Assembly (NCBI RefSeq): GCF_003611035.1
Contig: NZ_CP030033.1
Span: forward strand, 1,984,001-2,048,000
DNA from: Cryobacterium soli
GTDB lineage: Bacteria > Actinomycetota > Actinomycetes > Actinomycetales > Microbacteriaceae
Direction of reading: 5' to 3'
DNA length: 64,000 nt
This document shows, piece after piece, positions 370-23,910 of the stretch (its first letter is position 1; each line of letters starts with the position of its first letter). Below the pieces are notes generated by a model. It did not search any database and was not told where the DNA came from. It saw nothing but the letters and a program-made list of their open reading frames with translations. A program made the position numbers and the translations under genes.

Positions 370-2582
370 ACGGCTGCCACCACCGCTGCGAGCGATGCGG
401 CCTGGATGGCGGTGATCGCCACGGTGTTCACGATGTCCTGCACGAGGGCTCCTCTGGAAAGGTCGTTCATGGGTTTGCGCAGGCCCTGCAGGACGGGGCC
501 GATCGCGACGGCGCCAGCACTGCGCTGGACTGCCTTGTAGGTGTTGTTGCCGGTGTTGAGGTCGGGGAAGATGAAGACGGTGGCCTTACCGGCCACGTCG
601 GAGTCCGGCATCTTCGCCGCGGCCACCGCTGCGTCAGCGGCGGCGTCGTACTGGATCGGACCTTCGACGGCCAGGTCGGGGCGGCGTTCGCGCACGATGG
701 CGGTGGCCTCCCGCACCTTTTCGACATCCGCGCCGTTGCCCGAGATGCCGGTGGAGTACGACAGCATCGCGATGCGAGGCTCGATGCCGAACTCGATGGC
801 CGTCTCCGACGCCGAGATGGCGATGTCGGCGAGCTGGGCGGCGGTGGGGTCGGGGTTGACCGCGCAGTCGCCGTAGACGAGCACCCGGTCGGCCAGGGCC
901 ATCAGGAACACGCTCGAGACCACGGACACGCCGGGGCGGGTCTTGATGATCTCGAAGCTCGGGCGGATGGTGTGCGCGGTGGTGTGCGACGCGCCGGAGA
1001 CCATGCCGTCGGCCAGGCCCAGCTGCACCATCATCGTGCCGAAGTACGAGACGTCGGTGACGACGTCGCGGGCCTGGTCGATGGTGACGCCCTTGTGAGC
1101 GCGGAGGCGCGCGTATTCCTCGGCGAAGCGCATCCGCAGCACGTCGTCGAACGGGCTGATGACGGTGGCCTTGGCGAGGTCCAGGCCGAGGCCGATGGCG
1201 CGCGAACGCACCTCGAACTCCTCGCCGAGGATGATCAGGTCGGCCACGTCGCGGGCCAGCAGGGTGGCGGCGGCGCGGAGCACGCGGTCGTCGTCGCCCT
1301 CGGGCAGGACGATGCGCATGCGGGTCTGGCGGGCGCGCTCGAGCAGGGTGTACTCGAACATGAGCGGCGTGACCACGTCGGCGCGGCTCACCTTGAGCCG
1401 GTCGAGCAGGGCGCTGCCGTCGACGTGCTGCTCGAACAGCGCCAGGGCGGTGTCGTGCTTGCGCTGCGAGTCGGCGGCCAGGCGGCCGCGGGTGTGCGTG
1501 ATGCGCAGCGCCGCCTCGTAGGAGGCCAGGTCGGTGCGGATGATGGGCACCGACGGGGCGAGGCCCTTCATGAGCTGTTCGATGGCCTCGGGCAGCGGGA
1601 ACCCGCCGACGAGCACGACACCGGCCAGCGACGGGAAGGTCGCGGAGGAGTTGGCCATCAGGGCGGCCAGCAGCACCTCGGGGCGGTCGCTGGGGATCAC
1701 GACGACGGCGCCCTCGGTGAGGCGAGGCAGCACGTTGACCATCGACATGGCGGCCACGACCACGCTGAGCGCCTCGCGGGAGAGCAGCTCGGGGTCGCCC
1801 TGCACCAGGGTGCCGTGGGTGGCTTCGAGGATGGTCTTCATGCTCGGGGCCACGAGGAACGCGTCTTCGGGGATCGCCCAGACGGGCACGACGGCCGCAT
1901 GCATCGCATCCGGTGCGTCGGGCAGGTTGTCGACGCCCTCGCGCACCGCGGCGATGAGGCCGTTGAGGTTCTCGGGGTCGGCGCGGTTGACCACGACGCC
2001 GAGCAGGGAGACGTGCTCGGACTGCAGTTCGGTGAGCGCCACATCGGTGAGCTGACGGATGTCGTCACTGGTGCGCGGTTCGCTCTGGCCGAGCTGATCG
2101 CTCTGGCTGAGTCCCTCACCCTGGCCGAAGCCCACCCGGCCGGCGAGCACCAGCAGCACCGGAACACCGAGGTTCGCGGCGATACGGGCGTTGTAGGCCA
2201 GTTCGGTGGGGCTGCCGACGTCGGTGAAGTCGCTGCCGATGACCACGACGGCGTCGCACTGTGCTTCGACGGCCTTGTAGCGGGCCACGATGCGGGCGAG
2301 TGCGGCATCAGGGTCGGCGTGCACGTCGTCGTAGGTGACGCCGACGCACTCGTCATAGGTGAGCGCCGGCTGGGTGGCCGGGTTGGTGCCTGCGGGCTTG
2401 CCGGCCTGCAGGTGGTTCAGCAGCAACTCGAGAACGTAATCGGGCTTGTGCTTGGACCGGGCGATGGGGCGGAAGACGCCCACTCGCTCGATGGAGTGCA
2501 ACAGGGTGTCGAGAACGCCGAGTGCGATAGTAGATTTGCCGGTATTTCCCTCGGCGGAGGTGATGTAAATGCTTCGAGCCAC
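366..2582 (-). CDS. pta: Phosphate acetyltransferase, long form
   Basis: Pta interconverts acetyl-phosphate and acetyl-CoA in the cytoplasm. The 738-residue product matches the long three-domain enzymes such as E. coli Pta (about 714). The N-terminus has a P-loop-like GNTGKST at residues 12-18 (dethiobiotin-synthetase-like domain), the middle is the DRTGG-type domain, and the C-terminal third from about residue 410 is the catalytic PTA_PTB domain, with typical VLPEGDDDRVLRAA and SYSTGISGNG segments. The start is GTG at 2582, two bases after the xfp stop, and the stop overlaps the ackA ATG. Xfp, Pta and AckA are therefore almost certainly one transcript. The long N-terminal domain is regulatory in related enzymes. 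Confidence 0.95.
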   Translation of the reverse strand: MARSIYITSAEGNTGKSTIALGVLDTLLHSIERVGVFRPIARSKHKPDYVLELLLNHLQAGKPAGTNPATQPALTYDECVGVTYDDVHADPDAALARIVARYKAVEAQCDAVVVIGSDFTDVGSPTELAYNARIAANLGVPVLLVLAGRVGFGQGEGLSQSDQLGQSEPRTSDDIRQLTDVALTELQSEHVSLLGVVVNRADPENLNGLIAAVREGVDNLPDAPDAMHAAVVPVWAIPEDAFLVAPSMKTILEATHGTLVQGDPELLSREALSVVVAAMSMVNVLPRLTEGAVVVIPSDRPEVLLAALMANSSATFPSLAGVVLVGGFPLPEAIEQLMKGLAPSVPIIRTDLASYEAALRITHTRGRLAADSQRKHDTALALFEQHVDGSALLDRLKVSRADVVTPLMFEYTLLERARQTRMRIVLPEGDDDRVLRAAATLLARDVADLIILGEEFEVRSRAIGLGLDLAKATVISPFDDVLRMRFAEEYARLRAHKGVTIDQARDVVTDVSYFGTMMVQLGLADGMVSGASHTTAHTIRPSFEIIKTRPGVSVVSSVFLMALADRVLVYGDCAVNPDPTAAQLADIAISASETAIEFGIEPRIAMLSYSTGISGNGADVEKVREATAIVRERRPDLAVEGPIQYDAAADAAVAAAKMPDSDVAGKATVFIFPDLNTGNNTYKAVQRSAGAVAIGPVLQGLRKPMNDLSRGALVQDIVNTVAITAIQAASLAAVVAAV

Positions 2583-2584
2583 GG

Positions 2585-5059
2585 TTATACGTTATCCCCG
2601 CCGGTGGTGTCTAGTGCGCGCACGGCGGCTGCCGCGGCATCGTTCCCAGCCCATACCCAGTCGGTGACCTCGGGGATGTCTTCCCCGTGGTCGCGGGTGT
2701 ACTGCCGGGCACGCAGGCGGGCATCCTGCATCTGCTGGCGAAGCAGTCCGGCACGGGCTCCGAGTCCGGGCACCCGGTCGATGACATCCATCACCAGGTG
2801 GTACCGGTCGAGGTCGTTGAGCATGACCATGTCGAACGGCGTCGTCGTCGTTCCGTTCTCCTTGTACCCGCGGGCGTGCAGGTTGGAGTGGCCGTGGCGC
2901 TTGTAGGTGAGCCGGTGGATCAGCCACGGGTACCCGTGGTACGCGAACACGATCGGCTTGTCGGCGGTGAAGTAGGCGTCGAACTCGCGGTCGCTCAGAC
3001 CGTGCGGGTGGTCGTCCTCGGACTGCAGGCGCATGAGGTCGACCACGTTGACCACGCGCACGCTGAGGTCGGGCATGGCCTCGCGCAGGATCGCGGCGGC
3101 GGCGAGCACCTCGAGGGTGGGCACCTCGCCGGCGGCGGCGAGCACCACATCGGGTTCAGTGCCGGGCTCTTCGGTGCCGGCCCACTCGAAGATGCCCAGA
3201 CCCCGCTCGCAGTGAGCGACGGCCTGGTCCATGGTGAGCCAGTTCGGGGCCGGCTGCTTGCCGGCCACGACCACGTTGACGTAGTCGACGCTGCGCAGGC
3301 AGTGGTCGTAGATCGACAGCAGAGTATTCGCGTCGAACGGCAGGTAGACGCGTACGACATCCGCGCTCTTGTTCACGACGTGGTCGATGAAACCCGGGTC
3401 CTGGTGGCTGAAGCCGTTGTGGTCCTGGCGCCAGACGTGCGAGGACAGCAGGTAGTTCAGGCTCGAGATCGAGCGGCGCCACGGAATCTCCCGGGTGACC
3501 TTGAGCCACTTGGCGTGCTGGTTGAACATCGAGTCGATGATGTGGATGAACGCCTCGTAGCAGTTGAACAGGCCGTGGCGACCGGTGAGCAGGTAGCCCT
3601 CCAGCCAGCCCTGGCACTGGTGCTCGCTGAGCATCTCCATGACCCGGCCGGCACGGGCGAGGTTGGTGTCTTCGGGGATGTACTCGGCGTTCCACTGCTT
3701 GTCGGTGGCGGCGTAGACGGATGGTGCGAGCCGGTTGGACGCGGTCTCGTCGGGTCCGAAGATGCGGAAGTTGTCGGGGTTGTCGCGGATGACGTCGGCC
3801 AGCCAGATGCCGAGCACCTTGGTGGCCTCGTCGACGGTGGCGCCGGGGGACGGCACATCCACGGCGTACTCGCGGAAGTTGGGCAGCTTGAGGTCGCGGC
3901 GCAGCAGCCCGCCGTTGGCGACCGGGTTGGCGCTCATGCGCAGGTCGCCGTGCGGGGCGAGGGCGGAGATGATGCCCACCGGGGCGCCGGCCTCGTCGAA
4001 AAGTTCCTCCGGCCGGTACGACTTGAGCCAGGACTCGAGCACGTCGGTGTGCGACTGGGTGTCGCGGGCGTTCACGAGCGGCACCTGGTGCGAGCGCCAG
4101 GAGTCCTCCACCTGCACGCCGTCGATGACCGGTGGGCAGGTCCAGCCCTTGGGGGTCTTGAGGATGATCATCGGCCAGCGCGGCCGGTCGGTGCTGCCGG
4201 CGAGGGCGGCACGCTTGATCGCGGCGATCTCGTTGAGCACCTCGTCGAGGGTCTGCGCCATGCGCTGGTGCACGGCGAGGGGGTCTTCGCCGTCGAAACC
4301 GCCGGAGACGATGTGCGGGTTGTGGCCGTAGCCGCGCATGAGGTCGAGCAGTTCGTGCTCGGGGATGCGGGCAAGCACGGTGGGGTTGGCGATCTTGTAG
4401 CCGTTGAGGTGCAGGATCGGCAGCACGACGCCGTCTTCGAGCGGGTTGACGAACTTGTTGGAGTGCCAGCTGGTGGCCAGCGGTCCGGTCTCGGCCTCAC
4501 CGTCGCCGATGACGGCCGCGACGAGCAGGTCGGGGTTGTCGAACGCGGCGCCGTAGGCGTGACTCAGCGCATAGCCGAGCTCGCCGCCCTCGTGGATGGA
4601 ACCGGGGGTCTCCGGCGACGCGTGGCTGGGGATGCCGCCCGGGAAGGAGAACTGGCGGAACAGGCCCTTGACGCCGTCGACGGACTGGTCGATGCCGGAG
4701 TAGATCTCGGAGTAGGTGCCGTCGAGGTAGGCGTTGGCGACCATGCCGGGCCCACCGTGGCCGGGGCCGGTGATGTAGAGGGTGCTGATCTCGCGTTCGC
4801 GGATGACCCGGTTCAGGTGCGCGTAGAGGAAGTTGAGGCCCGGGGTGGTGCCCCAGTGGCCGAGCAGGCGCGGCTTGATGTGCTCCCGGGTGAGGGGTTC
4901 GCGCAGCAGCGGATTGTCGAGCAGGTAGATCTGCCCGACGGAAAGGTAGTTGGCAGCGCGCCACCAGGCATCCACACTGGCGAGAGCTTCGGCGCTCAGG
5001 CTGTGCGGAAGGCGGCTGGGCCAGGTGAATGATGAGGTGGCGTTGGACGACTGAACCAT
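2585..5059 (-). CDS. xfp: Xylulose-5-phosphate/fructose-6-phosphate phosphoketolase
   Basis: This thiamine-diphosphate enzyme splits xylulose-5-P (or fructose-6-P) with phosphate into acetyl-phosphate and glyceraldehyde-3-P (or erythrose-4-P). The 824 residues match the family length. Visible signatures include [26 protein letters not shown] and the TPP-binding [10 protein letters not shown] place the start at the ATG at 5059 because TGGAG sits six bases upstream; the same frame is open to a GTG at 5089. Next in the operon are pta and ackA, which consume the acetyl-phosphate. The xylA and xylB genes near 42-48 kb would supply xylulose-5-P. No dedicated regulator is adjacent. Confidence 0.96.
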
Positions 5060-16901: not shown

Positions 16902-18137
16902 TCAGTACGCGGTCGACATCCGTTTGCGCGGTCCCTCCGGCCCGTATGGCCAGGATGGCACTCGGGCCACGGGCAGCTCAGAACGTTCGACCCTTCGCAC
17001 CGAATACACCAACGGTGTCGTTTCGAGGACGTCCACCGCGCTGCGGTTGAGGTAGACCTGGGCCGTCTCGTCGTTGCAGCCCTCGACCTCGTAGGTCTCG
17101 CCCCGCCAGGTGGTGGTCGCGGACACCTGCGTGAGGTCGGTGACCTCGTTCGCGTCGAGGTGAGCTCGCCACTCCCAATACGAGTCGTATCCCGACGTGC
17201 ACGGAAACAGGAAGAAATCGTCGGTCACGGACTCACCCTGGCCCTTATCGGCCACGAACCCCGTGCCGGCAGCGGCGACAGGGGCTTCCCCCGGCTTCGG
17301 TCGTGGCACGGCGGGCCGGCTGACCAGCGCGTACCGACCGCGCACGCGGCCGACGAACCCGGCCGTGGTGCCGGATCCCACCGGACGGTCCACGCGTGTC
17401 CACGACCGCAGGCTCAGCTGCTCCGCCGGCACCAGCGCCGACCAGCCGCTGTTCAGATTGTCCTCGACGATCGTGATCTCGGGAACGTCGAAGTCTGGCA
17501 CTCCCCCTGTGGGCACGTAAACCAAAGCCAGACCCTCGCGGATGCCGGCAACGGTCACCGTGAAGTCCCGCCAGACCGCCTGCCACGTCACCTGCCGCAC
17601 CGCCGAGGCCCGACTCCGGTCCACCAGCGCCGTGTACGCGCCGTAGCCGTCAGGCGTCCAAGCGGCTCCAGCTACTAGGTCGGCGGTGGGTTCGCCGGCA
17701 CCGGGCCCGATCAGCTGGAGCTGCGGCACCCCGGCCTCGCTCACGGTGCCGCAGGTGTCGGCCACGGCGAAGTCCCGGCCGTCGACCCTGGTCGTGACGC
17801 CGGGCTGCGGGGTGCTCTCGTCGATCACATCGTAGGTCGTCGTGCGGGTCAGCCAGAACCGGTCCAGCGCCCGGAAGTCCACCATTCCCGTCGCCCCTTC
17901 CAGCCGGGGGTCGTCGTCGCGGCGGTAGACGCCCTTCTTCGGCAGGTCCCCGCCGATGTACACCCGACCGTCATAATTCACGAGGTAGACGTCAACGCGC
18001 ACTCCCCGGAAGGTCGCGTGACCGCGGACCTCAGTGTGGCCGCCCGGGATCGGCCGGGCTCGCAACACCTCCACGCTGGCGGGGTTCGTCAGCGAGCCGT
18101 CGAAGGGGTCCGGCAGTGCGGCGGCGGATGCGGGCAT
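16902..18137 (-). CDS. Protein of unknown function with internal repeats (paralogue 1)
   Basis: A 411-residue protein I do not recognise, with no signal peptide or membrane segment. A pattern recurs three times: residues 33-62 (HATFRG to GRVYIG), 179-209 (WQAVWRDF to LALVYV) and 333-363 (ATTTWRG to AQVYL). Each shows an A-x-x-x-R core and ends in a V-Y or V-Y-like strand. Units one and two are each followed by a similar stretch (FWLTRTTTYDVID at 94-106; LSLRSWTRVD at 241-250). The protein is likely all-beta. It is paralogous over most of its length to the next gene upstream, 37 bases away, so a tandem duplication made the pair. Confidence 0.85.
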   Translation of the reverse strand: MPASAAALPDPFDGSLTNPASVEVLRARPIPGGHTEVRGHATFRGVRVDVYLVNYDGRVYIGGDLPKKGVYRRDDDPRLEGATGMVDFRALDRFWLTRTTTYDVIDESTPQPGVTTRVDGRDFAVADTCGTVSEAGVPQLQLIGPGAGEPTADLVAGAAWTPDGYGAYTALVDRSRASAVRQVTWQAVWRDFTVTVAGIREGLALVYVPTGGVPDFDVPEITIVEDNLNSGWSALVPAEQLSLRSWTRVDRPVGSGTTAGFVGRVRGRYALVSRPAVPRPKPGEAPVAAAGTGFVADKGQGESVTDDFFLFPCTSGYDSYWEWRAHLDANEVTDLTQVSATTTWRGETYEVEGCNDETAQVYLNRSAVDVLETTPLVYSVRRVERSELPVARVPSWPYGPEGPRKRMSTAY

Positions 18138-18174: not shown

Positions 18175-19353
18175 CTAGTGGAGCGACAAGACCTTGGAGT
18201 CGACGGGCAGCGCGCTCCGATCGATGGGCTGGACCGTGTAAATGAAGGGAGTCGTGTCCGCGATGTCCACCGTGGAGTGGCTCAGGTACACGAGTCCCGC
18301 ACCGTCATCACGCCACTGGACGGGATGGGTCTGCCCGTTCCAGGTGGTGGTGGCGGTCACCTGTCGGAGGTCGGACACCTCGCTCTCGTCGACGGTCACC
18401 CGCCACGTCCAGTAGTGCTGGGACGACGCGACCAGGACAAACTCGTCGGTCACGGTGTCACCCCGGTTCTTCTCGACGACGACGGCGCTGCCCGGGGCAG
18501 CCACCCGCTCCTCGCCGGCGACGTGCGGCTCCGCCACGCGAACCATCGACGCCGTGCGGCCACGCAGCGTTCCCACGCATGCGTCCACGACTCCGACGCC
18601 CAACGGGCACTCGGTGAGGGTCCAACCGCGCAGACTCAGCTGCGCCAGCGGCACCACGGCAGACCATCCGTTCCTGCGACGGCCTCCTCCCAGCACGACC
18701 TCTGGTGCGTTCGACGGTGGCTCCCCGCCTCCCCCGGCGAAGATCATCGCCTGTCCGTCACAGATCGCGGCGATCTGCACGGTGAAATCCCGCCAGATCG
18801 CGGTCCACTCCACCCGGCGCACCACCGAGACGAGACTCCGGTCGACGATCTTCGTGAATAAGCCGTAGCCATCCGGTGCCCAGCCCTCGCCCTCAGGCTC
18901 GGCCGTACTTAACCAGATCAGCTGCAGCTGAGGCACCCCCGACGCACTGACGGTGCCTTCGGTGTCGACCAGGCCCACCGTCAGCCCGTCGATGGATGCC
19001 GTCAGCCCGGGCTGCGGCGTGGTCTCGTCGATCAGGTCGAAGGTGGTCGTGCGGGTCAGCCAGAACCGGCTCAGCCACCCGAAGTCCACCCGGCCGAACG
19101 CGACTCCCACCTGGGGGTCTTCCTCGCGCCCGAACACCCCGTACAGCGGAAGGTCACCGGCGACCGATACCCGGCCATCCCTGCCGACACCGCGCACCCG
19201 CAGCCGCACGCCCTGGAAGGTGGCGTGCCCGGAGACCTCCATGCGGCCGCCGGGTACGTTCCGTTCGCGTACGACATAGATGCCCGAGGGATTGGTGAGC
19301 GAGTCGTCGAACTCGTCGGACTCGTCGGACGGATTGGTGCAAGGTTCGGTCAT
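18175..19353 (-). CDS. Protein of unknown function with internal repeats (paralogue 2)
   Basis: A 392-residue paralogue of the gene at 16902-18137. The N-terminal half is very close (DDSLTNPSG, GHATFQGVR, FWLTRTTTFDLIDETTPQPG), and the same three repeat units appear (VEWTAIWRDF in the second, VTATTTWNGQT in the third). I chose the ATG at 19353, whose context (MTEPCTNPSDESDEFDDSL) aligns with the partner's N-terminus; the frame is open upstream. The acidic N-terminus and lack of a signal sequence point to the cytoplasm. No function is assigned. Confidence 0.85.
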   Translation of the reverse strand: MTEPCTNPSDESDEFDDSLTNPSGIYVVRERNVPGGRMEVSGHATFQGVRLRVRGVGRDGRVSVAGDLPLYGVFGREEDPQVGVAFGRVDFGWLSRFWLTRTTTFDLIDETTPQPGLTASIDGLTVGLVDTEGTVSASGVPQLQLIWLSTAEPEGEGWAPDGYGLFTKIVDRSLVSVVRRVEWTAIWRDFTVQIAAICDGQAMIFAGGGGEPPSNAPEVVLGGGRRRNGWSAVVPLAQLSLRGWTLTECPLGVGVVDACVGTLRGRTASMVRVAEPHVAGEERVAAPGSAVVVEKNRGDTVTDEFVLVASSQHYWTWRVTVDESEVSDLRQVTATTTWNGQTHPVQWRDDGAGLVYLSHSTVDIADTTPFIYTVQPIDRSALPVDSKVLSLH

Positions 19354-19390
19354 CCGTTGAACCGGGCGGATGCTCGTCGGTCGCGGCGGG

Positions 19391-20152
19391 TCATCGCGGC
19401 GCCGGGCGCGCTGACGCGTTTGACCCTGCTGCCCGGCGTCTGGCGAGAGTGTTCTCACCGTCGAGCTTGGCCGCCAGCGGCGCCCACAAAACCACGGCCA
19501 CGCCCACACCGAGCAGCAGGCCGCCGATGGTGTCGGTGAGCCAGTGCGCGCCGAGATAGGTGCGGCTGACCATCATCGCCACCGTGTACACCGCCCCGGC
19601 GATCCATACCCACAGCCGGGGGAAGATGATGCCCAGCAGCACGGCCATGGTCGCCGCGTTCGCCACATGGCCGGATGGGAACGAGCCGAAGTCGGAGGTG
19701 ACCAGCATGTCTTCGGGACGGGCCCGACCGAACAGGGTCTTCAGCAGCTGCACCAGGCCGGCACTGGCGACGGTGGCGAGCACGAAGTACAGCGCCGCCC
19801 ACGGGCGCCTCAGCACGAACAGGGTCACGACGATCGCGATCGGGATCACGAACACCCCGGCGATGCCCGCGCCGAGGAAATTCATCACGAGGGCGGGCAC
19901 CTCCCAAACCGGCGACCGGTGCTCGAGGATCTCTTCCATCCACTCCAGATCGGCCTCGATCGGGCGCCCGCTGCCTCGGGTGAGGATCAGGGCGCCGAGC
20001 AGGAAGGCGAAGAGAACGGCAATCGCCCCGCTGATCAGCGGCCAGCGCCGGGCGATGCGGCGGGAGGGGGCATCCGCCGCGGCTTCGGCCGTGGCCGGGG
20101 TGGGCGAATCGGGTCTGGTGGGCTCAGTCTCGTCTGATCGGGAGGGGTCCAT
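19391..20152 (-). CDS. PAP2-family membrane phosphatase
   Basis: A 253-residue integral membrane protein with all three PAP2 motifs: KTLFGRARP (about residues 134-142), PSGH in FPSGHVANA (about 155) and SRTYLGAHWLTD (about 194-205) with the catalytic histidine. Six hydrophobic segments fit the family. It would remove phosphate from a lipid phosphate or undecaprenyl pyrophosphate at the outer face of the membrane. It lies 37 bases downstream of no partner but upstream of the paralogue pair, so co-transcription with them is possible. Confidence 0.92.
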   Translation of the reverse strand: MDPSRSDETEPTRPDSPTPATAEAAADAPSRRIARRWPLISGAIAVLFAFLLGALILTRGSGRPIEADLEWMEEILEHRSPVWEVPALVMNFLGAGIAGVFVIPIAIVVTLFVLRRPWAALYFVLATVASAGLVQLLKTLFGRARPEDMLVTSDFGSFPSGHVANAATMAVLLGIIFPRLWVWIAGAVYTVAMMVSRTYLGAHWLTDTIGGLLLGVGVAVVLWAPLAAKLDGENTLARRRAAGSNASARPAPR

Positions 20153-20216: not shown

Positions 20217-21632
20217 TCAGGCGGTGAGCAGCGTGTCGCGGCCCTTGCCGGCCCGTTTGGAGGCGAGCATGGCCTCATCGGCGAGGGCGATCAGGTCGTC
20301 CGGGCTCATCGGCACGGCACGTCCCGGGGTGTACACGCTGATGCCGATGCTGGCCGACACGCGTTGGCCCCGCGCGAGGCCGTCGAGAGGTTCCCGCACG
20401 GCCTGGCGGATGCGCTGGGCTACCTCGAGCGCGCTCGTCTGGTCGATGCGGTCTGACGCGATCACGAACTCGTCGCCGCCGAACCGGCTCGGGGTGTCGT
20501 CCTCCCGCAGCACCCGCCGCAGCCGTACGGCGACCTGCTGCAGCACCTGGTCGCCGGCCTCGTGGCCGAAGTCGTCGTTGATCGCCTTGAAACCGTCAAG
20601 ATCGAGGAAGAGCACCGCGACCGCCCGCCCGTGACGCTCCGCGTCGCCGATCAGCCGGCGCAACCGGTTCTGCAGCGCGCGCCGGTTGGGTAGGCCGGTG
20701 AGGGAATCGTGCAGGGACTGGTGTTCGATCTGGTGTTGCAGGTGGATGCGTTCGAGCACCGGTGCCGCCTGGGTGGCCAGCGCTCCGAGCAGGTCGAGCA
20801 GGTTCTCATCGAGCACCCGCTGCCGCTGGAACCAGCAGGCGATGGCTCCGCTGACGGTGCCGTTGTCGATGATGGGCACGACGCAGAGCGCCTCGACGCC
20901 CTCCGCATCGAGCGGGGCCGCCAACGCGGGAAAGCTCACCGCGATGTCGGCGGCGCTCCGGCACAGCACCGGCAGCCCGGAGGCCAGCGCCGCGCCCACA
21001 GGCAGCAGATCGGCCAGCTCGACGGTTTCCGCGAGCGGCCGGGCCCCGGACACCAGTTCACGGGTGCCGCCTGGACCGGTGACGATCACCGAGACGTGCG
21101 CGGCATCCGTGGCCATCTCGGCCGAGACCCGCAATGCCGACCCGAACGCGGCGAGAGTGGATGCGGGCGCCAGGCCGGCCGCGGCGGCCTGCAGGATACG
21201 CACCCGGGCCACGGCGGTCTCGGCCGTGCGCCGGGCGTCCAACAGGTCGCGCTCGTACTTGAGCCGGATCCCCGCGTCGAAGACGGCGGCGTAGACCAGC
21301 GGCTCGGCTCCGGAGCCGTCCAGAACCGAGCTGACCAGCACGTCGCGGGTGCCGCCGGCGCTGGTGGAGAGGGTGAGCATCATCTCGTTGAGCCGGCTCT
21401 GGGCCTGCAGCAGCGGCATGTAGCGGGTCTCGAAGATGAGCTTGCTGCCGCGGGAGAGCAGCGCCAGGAAGTACCGGCCCACCACGTCCTCACGGGGATA
21501 GCCGGTCCACTCGCAGAACGTGTCGTTGGCCGAGCGGATGACCCCGTCCGCCGTCATGGCGAACAGGCCGGCCGGCGCGTGGTGGAACAGGGCGCGGGCG
21601 ATGTGGTCCGTCGTGCCGCCCGCATCCGTCAC
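20217..21632 (-). CDS. PAS-GAF-GGDEF diguanylate cyclase
   Basis: A 471-residue soluble sensor. A PAS domain covers about residues 12-125, a GAF-like domain 150-295 and a GGDEF domain 303-471. The active site is intact (GGDEF at 385-389), and the inhibitory site RxxD is at 376-379, correctly spaced, so it should make c-di-GMP with product inhibition. The PAS domain has the FETRYMPLLQAQ segment that I associate with the RsbP-type PAS. The GTG start at 21632 overlaps the stop of the upstream RsbQ-like hydrolase as GTGA, so the two are translationally coupled. No EAL or HD-GYP domain is present. Confidence 0.93.
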   Translation of the reverse strand: MTDAGGTTDHIARALFHHAPAGLFAMTADGVIRSANDTFCEWTGYPREDVVGRYFLALLSRGSKLIFETRYMPLLQAQSRLNEMMLTLSTSAGGTRDVLVSSVLDGSGAEPLVYAAVFDAGIRLKYERDLLDARRTAETAVARVRILQAAAAGLAPASTLAAFGSALRVSAEMATDAAHVSVIVTGPGGTRELVSGARPLAETVELADLLPVGAALASGLPVLCRSAADIAVSFPALAAPLDAEGVEALCVVPIIDNGTVSGAIACWFQRQRVLDENLLDLLGALATQAAPVLERIHLQHQIEHQSLHDSLTGLPNRRALQNRLRRLIGDAERHGRAVAVLFLDLDGFKAINDDFGHEAGDQVLQQVAVRLRRVLREDDTPSRFGGDEFVIASDRIDQTSALEVAQRIRQAVREPLDGLARGQRVSASIGISVYTPGRAVPMSPDDLIALADEAMLASKRAGKGRDTLLTA

Positions 21633-22468
21633 AGAAAGCGCCGGATCTGGCGTTCGATCTCGCCGGGATCGGACAGGTGCGCGTAGTGACCGGCGGCGTT
21701 GAGCACCACGAGTTCGCTGCCGATGATGTGCTCGTGCAGGTACGCGCCCACCTCCAGAGGGGCGATCAGATCGTCGGAGGACTGCAGGATCAGGGTGGGC
21801 GTGGTGATGTTCTTGAGCAGACGGCGCCAGTCCGAGAGGAAGGTGACCCGGGCGAAGTGTTGCGCGACCATGGTGTTGGTGCGGGTCATGCTCTCGGCCA
21901 GCTCGGCGGCCAGCTCGGGGCGGTCGGCGTTCTGCATCAGCGCCGGCGCCATCTCGGCGGCCCAGCTCACGTGGTTGACCTCGAGGGCGTCGAGGAGGGC
22001 GTCCACGTCGGCGCGTTCGAAGCCGCCCAGGTAGCCCTCGTCGTTGAGGTAACGCGGGGACGGCCCGAGCATGATGAGCCGGGCGAAGCGGTCCGGCTCC
22101 TCCACGGCGGCGAGGGCGCCGATCATGGCGCTCACCGAGTGGCCCACGAACACCACATCGTGCAGGTCGAGAGCGCGCAGGATCTCGAGCAGGTCGGCCG
22201 CGTAGCCGCGCAGCGAATCGTATTTGCGCCGGTCGTAGGCCGAGACGTCGGAGTCGCCCGAGCCGACGTGGTCGAAGCGCACCACCCGGCGTTCGTCGGC
22301 GAATTGCGGCGCCACCAGGCGCCACATGTTCTGGCTGGTGCCGTAGCCGGGGCCGAAGACGACGGGCTGCCCGGCCGGGTCGCCCAGCACCGTGACGCCG
22401 TTGCGGGTGAGCACGTCGGCCGTTGAACTCTCGGGGAGGTTCGCTCCGGCTGGCTGAGTGAAGGTCAC
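21629..22468 (-). CDS. RsbQ-like alpha/beta hydrolase
   Basis: A 279-residue hydrolase with the catalytic serine in VGHSVSAM (Ser111), the aspartate in QSSDDLIAP and the histidine in AAGHYAHLS. It follows Bacillus RsbQ closely (FGPGYGTSQNMWRLVAP, FDHVGSGDSDVSAYD, MLGPSPRYLND). RsbQ acts with the PAS domain of RsbP in energy-stress sensing, probably by providing a small ligand. Here the coupled partner is a PAS-GAF-GGDEF protein instead of a phosphatase. The GTG at 22468 has GGAAG nine to twelve bases upstream; an ATG at 22495 is the alternative. Confidence 0.9.
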   Translation of the reverse strand: MTFTQPAGANLPESSTADVLTRNGVTVLGDPAGQPVVFGPGYGTSQNMWRLVAPQFADERRVVRFDHVGSGDSDVSAYDRRKYDSLRGYAADLLEILRALDLHDVVFVGHSVSAMIGALAAVEEPDRFARLIMLGPSPRYLNDEGYLGGFERADVDALLDALEVNHVSWAAEMAPALMQNADRPELAAELAESMTRTNTMVAQHFARVTFLSDWRRLLKNITTPTLILQSSDDLIAPLEVGAYLHEHIIGSELVVLNAAGHYAHLSDPGEIERQIRRFL

Positions 22469-22556
22469 GTTCGAAATTCTTCCATACCGAGGCATCGCTC
22501 CGGTGACGAGAATCGCCCGGTGAGGCGGCACCCGGGCCGCGCAGGCGCGTTCACCG

Positions 22557-22648
22557 GGTCAGTGCGTCGCGTCAGTGTGTCGCGGGTCAGTGCGTCGCGG
22601 GTCAGTGGGTCAGCGCGTCAGTGCGTCGCGGGTCAGTGGGTCAGCGCG
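22557..22648. repeat. Short tandem repeats duplicating the end of the Bcr/CflA gene
   Basis: The stretch is built of GGGTCAGTGCGTCGC-like units. A block of about 28 bases (TGCGTCGCGGGTCAGTGG and on) occurs at 22590 and again at 22622. The last copy contains the stop codon and final codons of the transporter gene, so the array looks like repeated duplication of that gene's 3' end. Each copy again carries a CACTGA, hence a stop, on the minus strand. Confidence 0.7.
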
Positions 22649-23910
22649 GCCACCGTGCGCGGGCGCACGATCAGCCACAGGCTCAGCACGGAGATGATCG
22701 CGCAGACACCCATCACCGAGGCCATCGGAACGGCGGTTCCCACGCCGAGCAGGCCGACGACCGGGGAGATCAGGCCGGCGATACCGAAGTTGGCCGCGCC
22801 CAGGACGGATGCGGCGGTGCCGGCCTCGCTGCCGTGCGAGTTGAGGGCGATGACCTGCACGGTGGGGAAGGTGAATCCACAGCCGGCGATGAAGAACCAG
22901 AGCGGGATGAGCGTGCCCCAGAGGCCGGCGCCCAGCAGGTCGAGGGTGAAGATGGCCGCCGACGTGAGCACCAGCACGGCCGTGGCGCCGATCAGGATGT
23001 TCTGCGGACCCACGTTGTAGCGGTGCATCAGCCGGGAGCTGGTCTGCACCCCCACGACGATGCCGAGGGAGTTGATCGCGAAGAGCACGCCGTACTGCTG
23101 GGCGCTGAAGTCGTAGACCTGCTGGAACAGGAACGGCGACGAGGAGAGGTAGGAGAACAGCCCGGTGAAGGTCATCGCGCCGATGATGGCGACACCGACG
23201 AAGGTGCGGTCGCCCAGAACCGCGCGGTAACGCTGGCCGAGGCTGGAGTGGCCCGGAACCGTCCGGCGCTCCTTGGGCAGGGTTTCCACGATCCAGATCG
23301 CCACGGCGATCATCACGACGATGCCGTACCCGGCGAGCACCCAGAAAATACCGCGCCAGGGCATCACGAGCAGCAACTGCGAGCCGATCACGGGCGCGAG
23401 CACCGGTGCGAGGCCGCTGACCAGGGCGAGCCGGGAGAGCATCTTCACGAGAGGCTTACCGCCGAAGAGGTCGCGCACCATGGCCATGGCCACGACGGCA
23501 CCGGCCGCGGCGCCGAAGCCCTGCAGAACCCGGAAGATTCCGAGCGAGACGATGTCGCTGGAGAGCGCCGCGCCCACGCAGGCGAGCACGTGGAAGCCGG
23601 TGGCCAGCAGCAACGGCAGACGGCGGCCGATCTTGTCGCTCCATGGTCCGACGATGAGCTGGCCGAAGCCGAACCCGATCATGGTTCCGGTGAGGGTGAG
23701 CTGGATGGCCGCGGCCGAGACCCCGAGTTCGCTTTCGAGGATGGGGAACGCCGGCAGGTACAGGTCGATCGTGAACGGACCGAGCGCGGTCAGCGCGCCC
23801 AGGATGATGATGTAGACGATGCGCTGTCCCCGGGAGAGCGCGTCACCCGGGTGCCGGGCGGTCGAGTGCAACTGTGCATCGGTGATGACGGGGATGACGG
23901 CGGTAGTCAC
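22633..23910 (-). CDS. Bcr/CflA-family multidrug MFS transporter
   Basis: A 425-residue membrane protein with twelve hydrophobic segments. The signature GPFTIDLYLPAFP opens helix 1 and the motif A region GPWSDKIGRRLPLL follows helix 2, as in Bcr/CflA proton-driven exporters (bicyclomycin, chloramphenicol type). GTG at 23910 is preferred because GAGGA lies at a good distance; the frame upstream is not conserved-looking. Its stop codon lies inside the tandem repeat array. The transported drug cannot be inferred. Confidence 0.9.
   Translation of the reverse strand: MTTAVIPVITDAQLHSTARHPGDALSRGQRIVYIIILGALTALGPFTIDLYLPAFPILESELGVSAAAIQLTLTGTMIGFGFGQLIVGPWSDKIGRRLPLLLATGFHVLACVGAALSSDIVSLGIFRVLQGFGAAAGAVVAMAMVRDLFGGKPLVKMLSRLALVSGLAPVLAPVIGSQLLLVMPWRGIFWVLAGYGIVVMIAVAIWIVETLPKERRTVPGHSSLGQRYRAVLGDRTFVGVAIIGAMTFTGLFSYLSSSPFLFQQVYDFSAQQYGVLFAINSLGIVVGVQTSSRLMHRYNVGPQNILIGATAVLVLTSAAIFTLDLLGAGLWGTLIPLWFFIAGCGFTFPTVQVIALNSHGSEAGTAASVLGAANFGIAGLISPVVGLLGVGTAVPMASVMGVCAIISVLSLWLIVRPRTVAALTH

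Follow-up and report, generated by a model that had tools for sequence, protein, structure and literature searches.

The 64,000-nucleotide stretch of Cryobacterium soli DNA analysed here (contig NZ_CP030033.1, positions 1,984,001 to 2,048,000; the window) contains two overlapping genes that encode an RsbQ-like alpha/beta hydrolase and a diguanylate cyclase composed of a PAS, a GAF and a GGDEF domain. The pair is probably a two-gene RsbQ-PAS sensing module with cyclic di-GMP (c-di-GMP) as its output, in which the hydrolase controls the cyclase dimer by contact through the PAS domain and the linker helix that follows it. The coordinates of the features are collected in Table 1.

The hydrolase was compared with proteins of solved structure, and the top sequence match was RsbQ of Bacillus subtilis (1wom, E 2.1e-74). 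The alignment covered residues 18-274 of the query and 6-262 of RsbQ, in agreement with the original prediction, made from the letters of the stretch, that the protein resembles Bacillus RsbQ along its length. The next matches were Olei00960 (3qvm) and then the plant proteins KAI2 and D14 (approximately E 1e-55 to 1e-42). The Ser-Asp-His triad was complete, with Ser111 as the nucleophile and Asp233 and His261 assigned by alignment. Across 148 non-duplicate hydrolases, the Ser was present in 147 and both the Asp and the His in all 148. The only exception, L131 (motif GHCVS), has Cys at the nucleophile position and was still paired with a PAS-GAF-GGDEF gene. Within the C. soli genome, the second-closest hydrolase was a mere 27% identical.

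For the cyclase, the active site and the RxxD inhibitory site (I-site) were both found intact, R376-E-D-D379 being followed, after five residues, by G385-G-D-E-F389. By these sequence features the protein would be an active diguanylate cyclase. In the AlphaFold2 model (mean predicted local distance difference test score, pLDDT, 93.7) the PAS domain was followed by a helix (121-154), the GAF domain, a second helix (276-306) and the GGDEF domain, and a separate model of residues 1-150 reached a mean pLDDT of 93.3. Two further features named in the original prediction were confirmed, namely the complete GGDEF site with its inhibitory site and the overlap of the hydrolase stop codon with the GTG of the cyclase gene, the two genes sharing GTGA. 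A start codon at the exact 4-nt overlap was available in 66 of the 79 homologous hydrolase-cyclase pairs, 'available' rather than 'mapped' because the script took the start nearest to that position. On the basis of this count, the overlap was considered to be more than chance. A scan for sigma-70 promoters and terminators found none.

The original prediction had been tied in advance to conservation of the pair in relatives, and the pair was found to be conserved. Among 57 Cryobacterium genomes, the source genome included, the hydrolase was present in 17 (E <=1e-40). The same 17 held a full-length cyclase homologue, adjacent to the hydrolase in every case, the list of cyclase homologues in the genus ending at weak matches. 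Among 398 Microbacteriaceae genomes, 69 hydrolases (E 1e-40 or better) were found in 64 genomes, representing 25 of 85 genera. The hydrolase search scored six candidates per genome and the PAS-profile search described below nine, and lone genes may have been missed. Sixty-six family loci were fetched, excluding the window, one locus from the genus search (G047) and a hydrolase truncated at the end of its contig. In 65 of these an RsbP-type PAS gene lay next to the hydrolase. Of the partners, 56 belonged to the GAF-GGDEF type, including one that ran into the contig end before its output domain and one with a broken frame, and nine to a PAS-GGDEF-EAL type. Overall, the PAS gene lay downstream of 67 of the 68 assessable family hydrolases. 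A profile built from the PAS domain and linker of the relatives detected 70 loci with at least 101 bits in the 398 genomes, the next listed match scoring 49.5 bits, and a hydrolase lay directly upstream of 67 of these 70 genes. A pairing by chance, or one peculiar to the strain, was rejected on the strength of this conservation. Among 14 fetched genus loci, a major facilitator superfamily (MFS) gene was found upstream in six and a PAP2 gene downstream in five, all in close relatives. Since these flanks were common to close relatives only, the pair appears to have been kept while its surroundings changed, and the MFS and PAP2 genes were rejected as parts of the module.

To compare the two proteins as they diverged, pairs were collected from these loci and beyond; 8 of 156 were exact duplicates, of which one was removed early and seven later. 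The 86-row set, the 155-row tree, the DIT tallies and the hydrolase columns compared with PAS position 70, all given below, retain those seven. From the pair set, L095 (broken frame) and L144 (no partner) were dropped and L090 was retained; from the alignment all three were dropped, L090 because of a contig end. Proteins outside 400-560 aa were excluded from the co-divergence sets. For the resulting 79 non-duplicate GAF-GGDEF pairs, distances between hydrolases correlated with those between PAS domains at 0.77, compared to 0.61 for PAS and GAF and 0.42 for PAS and GGDEF, which lie in the same chain. Partial correlations with the hydrolase were 0.66 [0.54, 0.74] for the PAS domain and 0.47 [0.27, 0.63] for the linker, and fell to 0.12 [0.00, 0.24] for GAF and 0.01 [-0.08, 0.12] for GGDEF. 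In the earlier redundant set of 86 rows, neither limiting each region to 100 sites nor, as a separate check, leaving out 11 rows changed the contrast between PAS and GAF or GGDEF. In that set the GAF domain was the least conserved region, mean pairwise identity being 0.31 there, 0.44 in PAS and 0.62 in the hydrolase. Co-divergence of this kind is not proof of contact and can also stem from exchange of the hydrolase and PAS domain as a cassette; either way, the two behave as one unit.

The distribution beyond the family was sampled from the best 80 hydrolase loci bacteria-wide, one genome per species. An RsbP-type PAS protein followed the hydrolase at 77 of these. Pfam assigned 40 SpoIIE, 18 GGDEF and 17 HisKA outputs to the 77 partners, and the remaining two (L195 and L198) ran off their contigs. 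The GGDEF loci comprised 17 from genera that we take to belong to the Microbacteriaceae and one from an uncultured actinobacterium. A GAF domain was present in 40 of the 77 partners, some phosphatases among them, and the GAF insertion is therefore common in the module. Within the family, GAF_2 was matched in 68 of 78 scanned members, that is, in 68 of 69 without an EAL domain and in none of the nine with one. The GGDEF and RxxD motifs were intact in 67 of the 69 non-EAL members, including the cyclase of the window. Degenerate motifs were seen in two RsbQ-paired PAS-GAF-GGDEF proteins, L127 (REDEF) and L133 (NTNEF), which are perhaps receptors rather than enzymes.

In the EAL lineage (L140-L143 and L145-L149) the RsbQ homologue is paired with a PAS-GGDEF-EAL protein. 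All nine have an EAL domain and lack a GAF match, and the GGDEF motif is altered in six; judged from these motifs, the same RsbQ-PAS input may lower c-di-GMP in this lineage. The two lineages, GAF-GGDEF and GGDEF-EAL, co-occur in two genomes (G293 and G300), and a similar case has been described in Psychromonas (PMC3183031). When output types were placed on a tree of the 148 hydrolases, with 12 rows labelled manually according to motif and Pfam tallies, the GAF-GGDEF and EAL labels required one change each, the PPM phosphatase and histidine kinase labels seven and six, and all labels together nine, against a mean of 60 for shuffled labels. Support for the branch of GAF-GGDEF hydrolases was 98 in the 155-row tree and 77 in the 148-row tree. 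Since the support falls when duplicates are removed, a single origin of these hydrolases is likely but not firm.

In the source genome, a search for SpoIIE-family phosphatases found no match, whereas the control run of that search, over 14 known genomes, picked up the family in five, including B. subtilis; 10 GGDEF and 7 EAL matches were present. The output of the pair is GGDEF and not the PPM (SpoIIE-family) phosphatase of the RsbQP sigma-B pathway, and the failure to detect such a phosphatase is consistent with c-di-GMP as the output in place of partner switching of the RsbP type.

Modules of this kind have been described before. Nadezhdin, Brody and Price (2011, PMC3183031) listed 45 adjacent pairs of RsbQ with an RsbP-type PAS protein, the outputs being phosphatases, histidine kinases and diguanylate cyclases, and in 36 of the 45 a stretch of at least 21 residues that could form a coiled-coil lay between PAS and output. 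RsbQ and RsbP of Bacillus were reported there to interact physically; replacing either F55 or Y59, both in the F-alpha helix of RsbP, by Ala abolished signalling and disturbed the RsbQ contact. Two models were considered, one in which a product is delivered to the PAS domain and one in which the hydrolase is the sensor. Even for Bacillus, energy-stress sensing was said to be assumed, with no experiment to support it, and the physiological cue was called 'mysterious' (PMC3183031). A 2025 paper (PMC12143880) restated the coupling of RsbQ-PAS to GGDEF and presented a predicted 2RsbP/2RsbQ complex in which RsbQ sits between the PAS domains and linkers. The notion of a module new in kind was therefore rejected. 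The original prediction that an RsbQ-type input is wired to c-di-GMP was strengthened by the conserved pair, the co-divergence with PAS and the absence of a detected SpoIIE phosphatase; its novelty did not stand, the arrangement having been published in 2011 (PMC3183031).

The window pair shares with the 2011 module an RsbQ homologue immediately upstream of the PAS gene, a PAS domain that is the most N-terminal, an output (GGDEF) from the set of PPM, kinase and GGDEF, and the lack of a DIT motif after PAS, residues 119-121 being D-A-G. DIT did not figure among the eight most frequent triplets in the GAF-GGDEF rows and was seen in 2 of 17 kinase rows. It differs in the GAF domain between PAS and GGDEF and in an Arg at the position of Y59, found in 74 of 80 GAF-GGDEF members. 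As to the coiled-coil, a 34-residue helix (121-154) is predicted after PAS, but it enters the GAF domain. In the two papers cited above and a SigB review (PMC7522486), from an open-access library that lacks most subscription journals, a GAF domain in an RsbQ-PAS module was not seen described, and the word GAF is absent from the main text of PMC3183031. A literature search for Cryobacterium together with c-di-GMP found nothing.

Compared with B. subtilis RsbQ-RsbP, the hydrolase is close and the partner likewise has an N-terminal PAS domain and a helical linker; the output, GGDEF instead of a PPM phosphatase, differs. The diguanylate cyclase SiaD with its activating partner SiaC (7e6g, rank 17 among structure matches, 195 aligned columns covering approximately the last helix and GGDEF) resembles the pair in outline, without membership being implied. 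There, the partner protein is not a hydrolase. The plant hydrolases KAI2 and D14 are closely related to the window's hydrolase by sequence, although eukaryotic. They act as signalling partners or receptors with the triad kept, and their own partners are F-box and repressor proteins. In MtG, the RsbT-controlled diguanylate cyclase of Moorella thermoacetica, a stress-pathway partner also acts via an N-terminal domain, GAF and a helical linker, but RsbT takes the partner's role there and an RsbU-like domain stands at the N-terminus instead of PAS (PMC12143880).

The segment FETRYMPLLQAQ (residues 67-78), for which the original prediction noted a likeness to RsbP, falls within the F-alpha helix (61-78) of the cyclase PAS domain. 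The likeness was checked via the residue numbers of Nadezhdin et al. (PMC3183031) alone, the signature positions being mapped by a constant offset of +11. By this mapping, L48 (L59 in the cyclase), P62 (P73) and E72 (E83) are kept. When a solved RsbP-type PAS structure was sought by sequence, the best PDB match was a generic sensor PAS (E 3.3e-4). The predicted fold matched the ligand-binding PAS domains of PpsR, FixL (heme), LOV (flavin), NifL and others, which ranked close together and left the ligand class undecided.

Based on these data, a mechanism can be proposed. The overlapping stop and start codons would hold the two proteins at a fixed ratio. The hydrolase would bind, as RsbQ does RsbP in Bacillus, to PAS and to the first part of the linker helix in the cyclase dimer, and a small molecule in its Ser-Asp-His pocket would alter this contact, the need for the triad being taken from Bacillus. 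The change would travel via helix 121-154, GAF and helix 276-306 and bring the two GGDEF domains together for c-di-GMP synthesis, activation being the presumed direction. The product may then shut the cyclase off at the I-site, and the GAF domain could serve as a second input or as a relay.

Several observations weigh against control by contact. The PAS domain differs from RsbP at signature or contact positions, F55 corresponding to Ile66, Y59 to Arg70, P86 to Asp97 and C10 to Ala21 by the same offset, so the surface differs from Bacillus where RsbQ is contacted. The position aligned with Y59 was Arg in 8 of 9 EAL members as well as in the GAF-GGDEF members given above; among phosphatases it was His in 39 of 40 and among kinases in 13 of 17. 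In an earlier alignment of the signature residues, which still held the seven duplicates, the labels of L217 and L232 had also been set by hand. The changed residues may have been compensated for, or they may mean that the parallel with Bacillus is weak, and this is the chief point of doubt. Hydrolase columns that vary with PAS position 70 were inseparable from shared descent, and nothing was drawn from them. The pairing is, moreover, not obligatory, because at loci L244, L245 and L247 two RsbP-type PAS genes (genomes G092 and G364) had no RsbQ-like match nearby and one RsbQ-like hydrolase (G096:C7) had no PAS gene beside it. At one further PAS gene (L246, genome G319), the place of RsbQ is taken by a different hydrolase that lacks the nucleophile Ser.

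This last locus also bears on Model 1 of Nadezhdin et al., the version put forward in the original prediction. Here the hydrolase would act as an enzyme and hand its product to the PAS pocket, PAS would be the sensor, and nothing beyond chemistry and delivery would be asked of the hydrolase. The near-complete retention of the triad among the 148 hydrolases is in line with such an enzyme, as are the null phenotypes of triad substitutions in Bacillus, reported in earlier work cited in PMC3183031, and the predicted likeness of the PAS fold to FixL, NifL and LOV, a shared fold that does not itself show a ligand. The triad is not decisive, however, given that KAI2 and D14 keep it and act as receptors, and the Ser-less hydrolase at L246 speaks against required chemistry, although its PAS partner also lacks Arg70 and Glu83. 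A ligand-making hydrolase was on these grounds considered possible but doubtful. With GAF matched in 68 of the 69 non-EAL family members and in 40 of the 77 partners bacteria-wide, GAF could instead be the main sensor, the hydrolase-PAS pair setting just dimerisation or localisation; this appears improbable, in that no region is less conserved than GAF, its co-divergence with the hydrolase is slight, and the EAL lineage keeps the hydrolase without a GAF match. That the two genes are merely co-inherited, a metabolic esterase sharing an operon with a cyclase, would be compatible with a pair known here from sequences. Such an arrangement is very improbable in view of the persistence of the pair while neighbouring genes change, the way in which the hydrolase tracks PAS but neither of the other two domains of the cyclase, and the physical interaction of the Bacillus proteins (PMC3183031). 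Control of the cyclase dimer by contact with the hydrolase is the favoured reading.

The exchange of partners at L246 (positions 1225-3371, plus strand) was characterised separately. The RsbP-type PAS-GAF-GGDEF gene follows a non-RsbQ alpha/beta hydrolase gene with the same 4-nt overlap. The hydrolase (257 aa, elbow motif GWREG) had no PDB match at E 0.001 and no meaningful alignment with the hydrolase of the window. Among 18 other fetched homologues of this hydrolase, no cyclase match was found in the flanks, and a near relative (G279) carries an eroded cyclase. From its sequence, this single locus hints that chemistry can be dispensable. Taken further, the Microbacteriaceae module might have specialised as a switch for c-di-GMP, its contact surface remodelled by the exchange of an aromatic residue for Arg and its hydrolase acting as a receptor in the manner of KAI2 and D14, the L246 swap showing the chemistry to be dispensable and the input driving synthesis and probably breakdown in two lineages. 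This broader proposal is speculative and, as a whole, unlikely.

Table 1. Features of the hydrolase-cyclase pair, in positions of the window
Feature	Position	Strand	Details
RsbQ-like alpha/beta hydrolase	21629..22468	minus	GTG start 22468, stop 21629, 279 aa; Ser111/Asp233/His261
Overlap GTGA (hydrolase stop and cyclase GTG start)	21629..21632	minus	4 nt
PAS-GAF-GGDEF diguanylate cyclase	20217..21632	minus	GTG start 21632, stop 20217, 471 aa
RsbP-type PAS domain, residues 12-120; F-alpha helix 61-78	21273..21599	minus	Pfam PAS 13-100; model
Linker helix, residues 121-154 (34 residues)	21171..21272	minus	Predicted structure; co-divergence with hydrolase
GAF domain, residues 160-275, between PAS and GGDEF	20808..21155	minus	Pfam GAF_2 166-294; model
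Helix into cyclase domain, residues 276-306	20715..20807	minus	Predicted structure
GGDEF domain, residues 307-464; I-site R376xxD379, GGDEF 385-389	20241..20714	minus	Pfam

Elsewhere in the window, an imperfect tandem repeat with units of 15 and 31 nt was found at 22551-22663, between the stop of the MFS gene and the start of the hydrolase. Two neighbouring paralogues lie on the minus strand at 16902-18137 and 18175-19509, with 190 of 381 aligned positions identical; neither had a Pfam match at E 0.01, the second being searched from its likely start at 19359.

We know of no later identification of the physiological cue of RsbQ-PAS modules. The pair offers c-di-GMP as a readout and a cassette of just two genes, and 148 non-duplicate natural variants are available besides the lone and swapped ones, so that the choice between a hydrolase that makes a ligand and one that acts as a receptor is directly testable. 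A hydrolase-cyclase pair was itself to be expected from what the 2011 paper describes (PMC3183031). The pair in the window is a well-conserved case of the RsbQ-PAS module, with the GAF insertion and the Arg at the position of Y59 as traits of the Microbacteriaceae.

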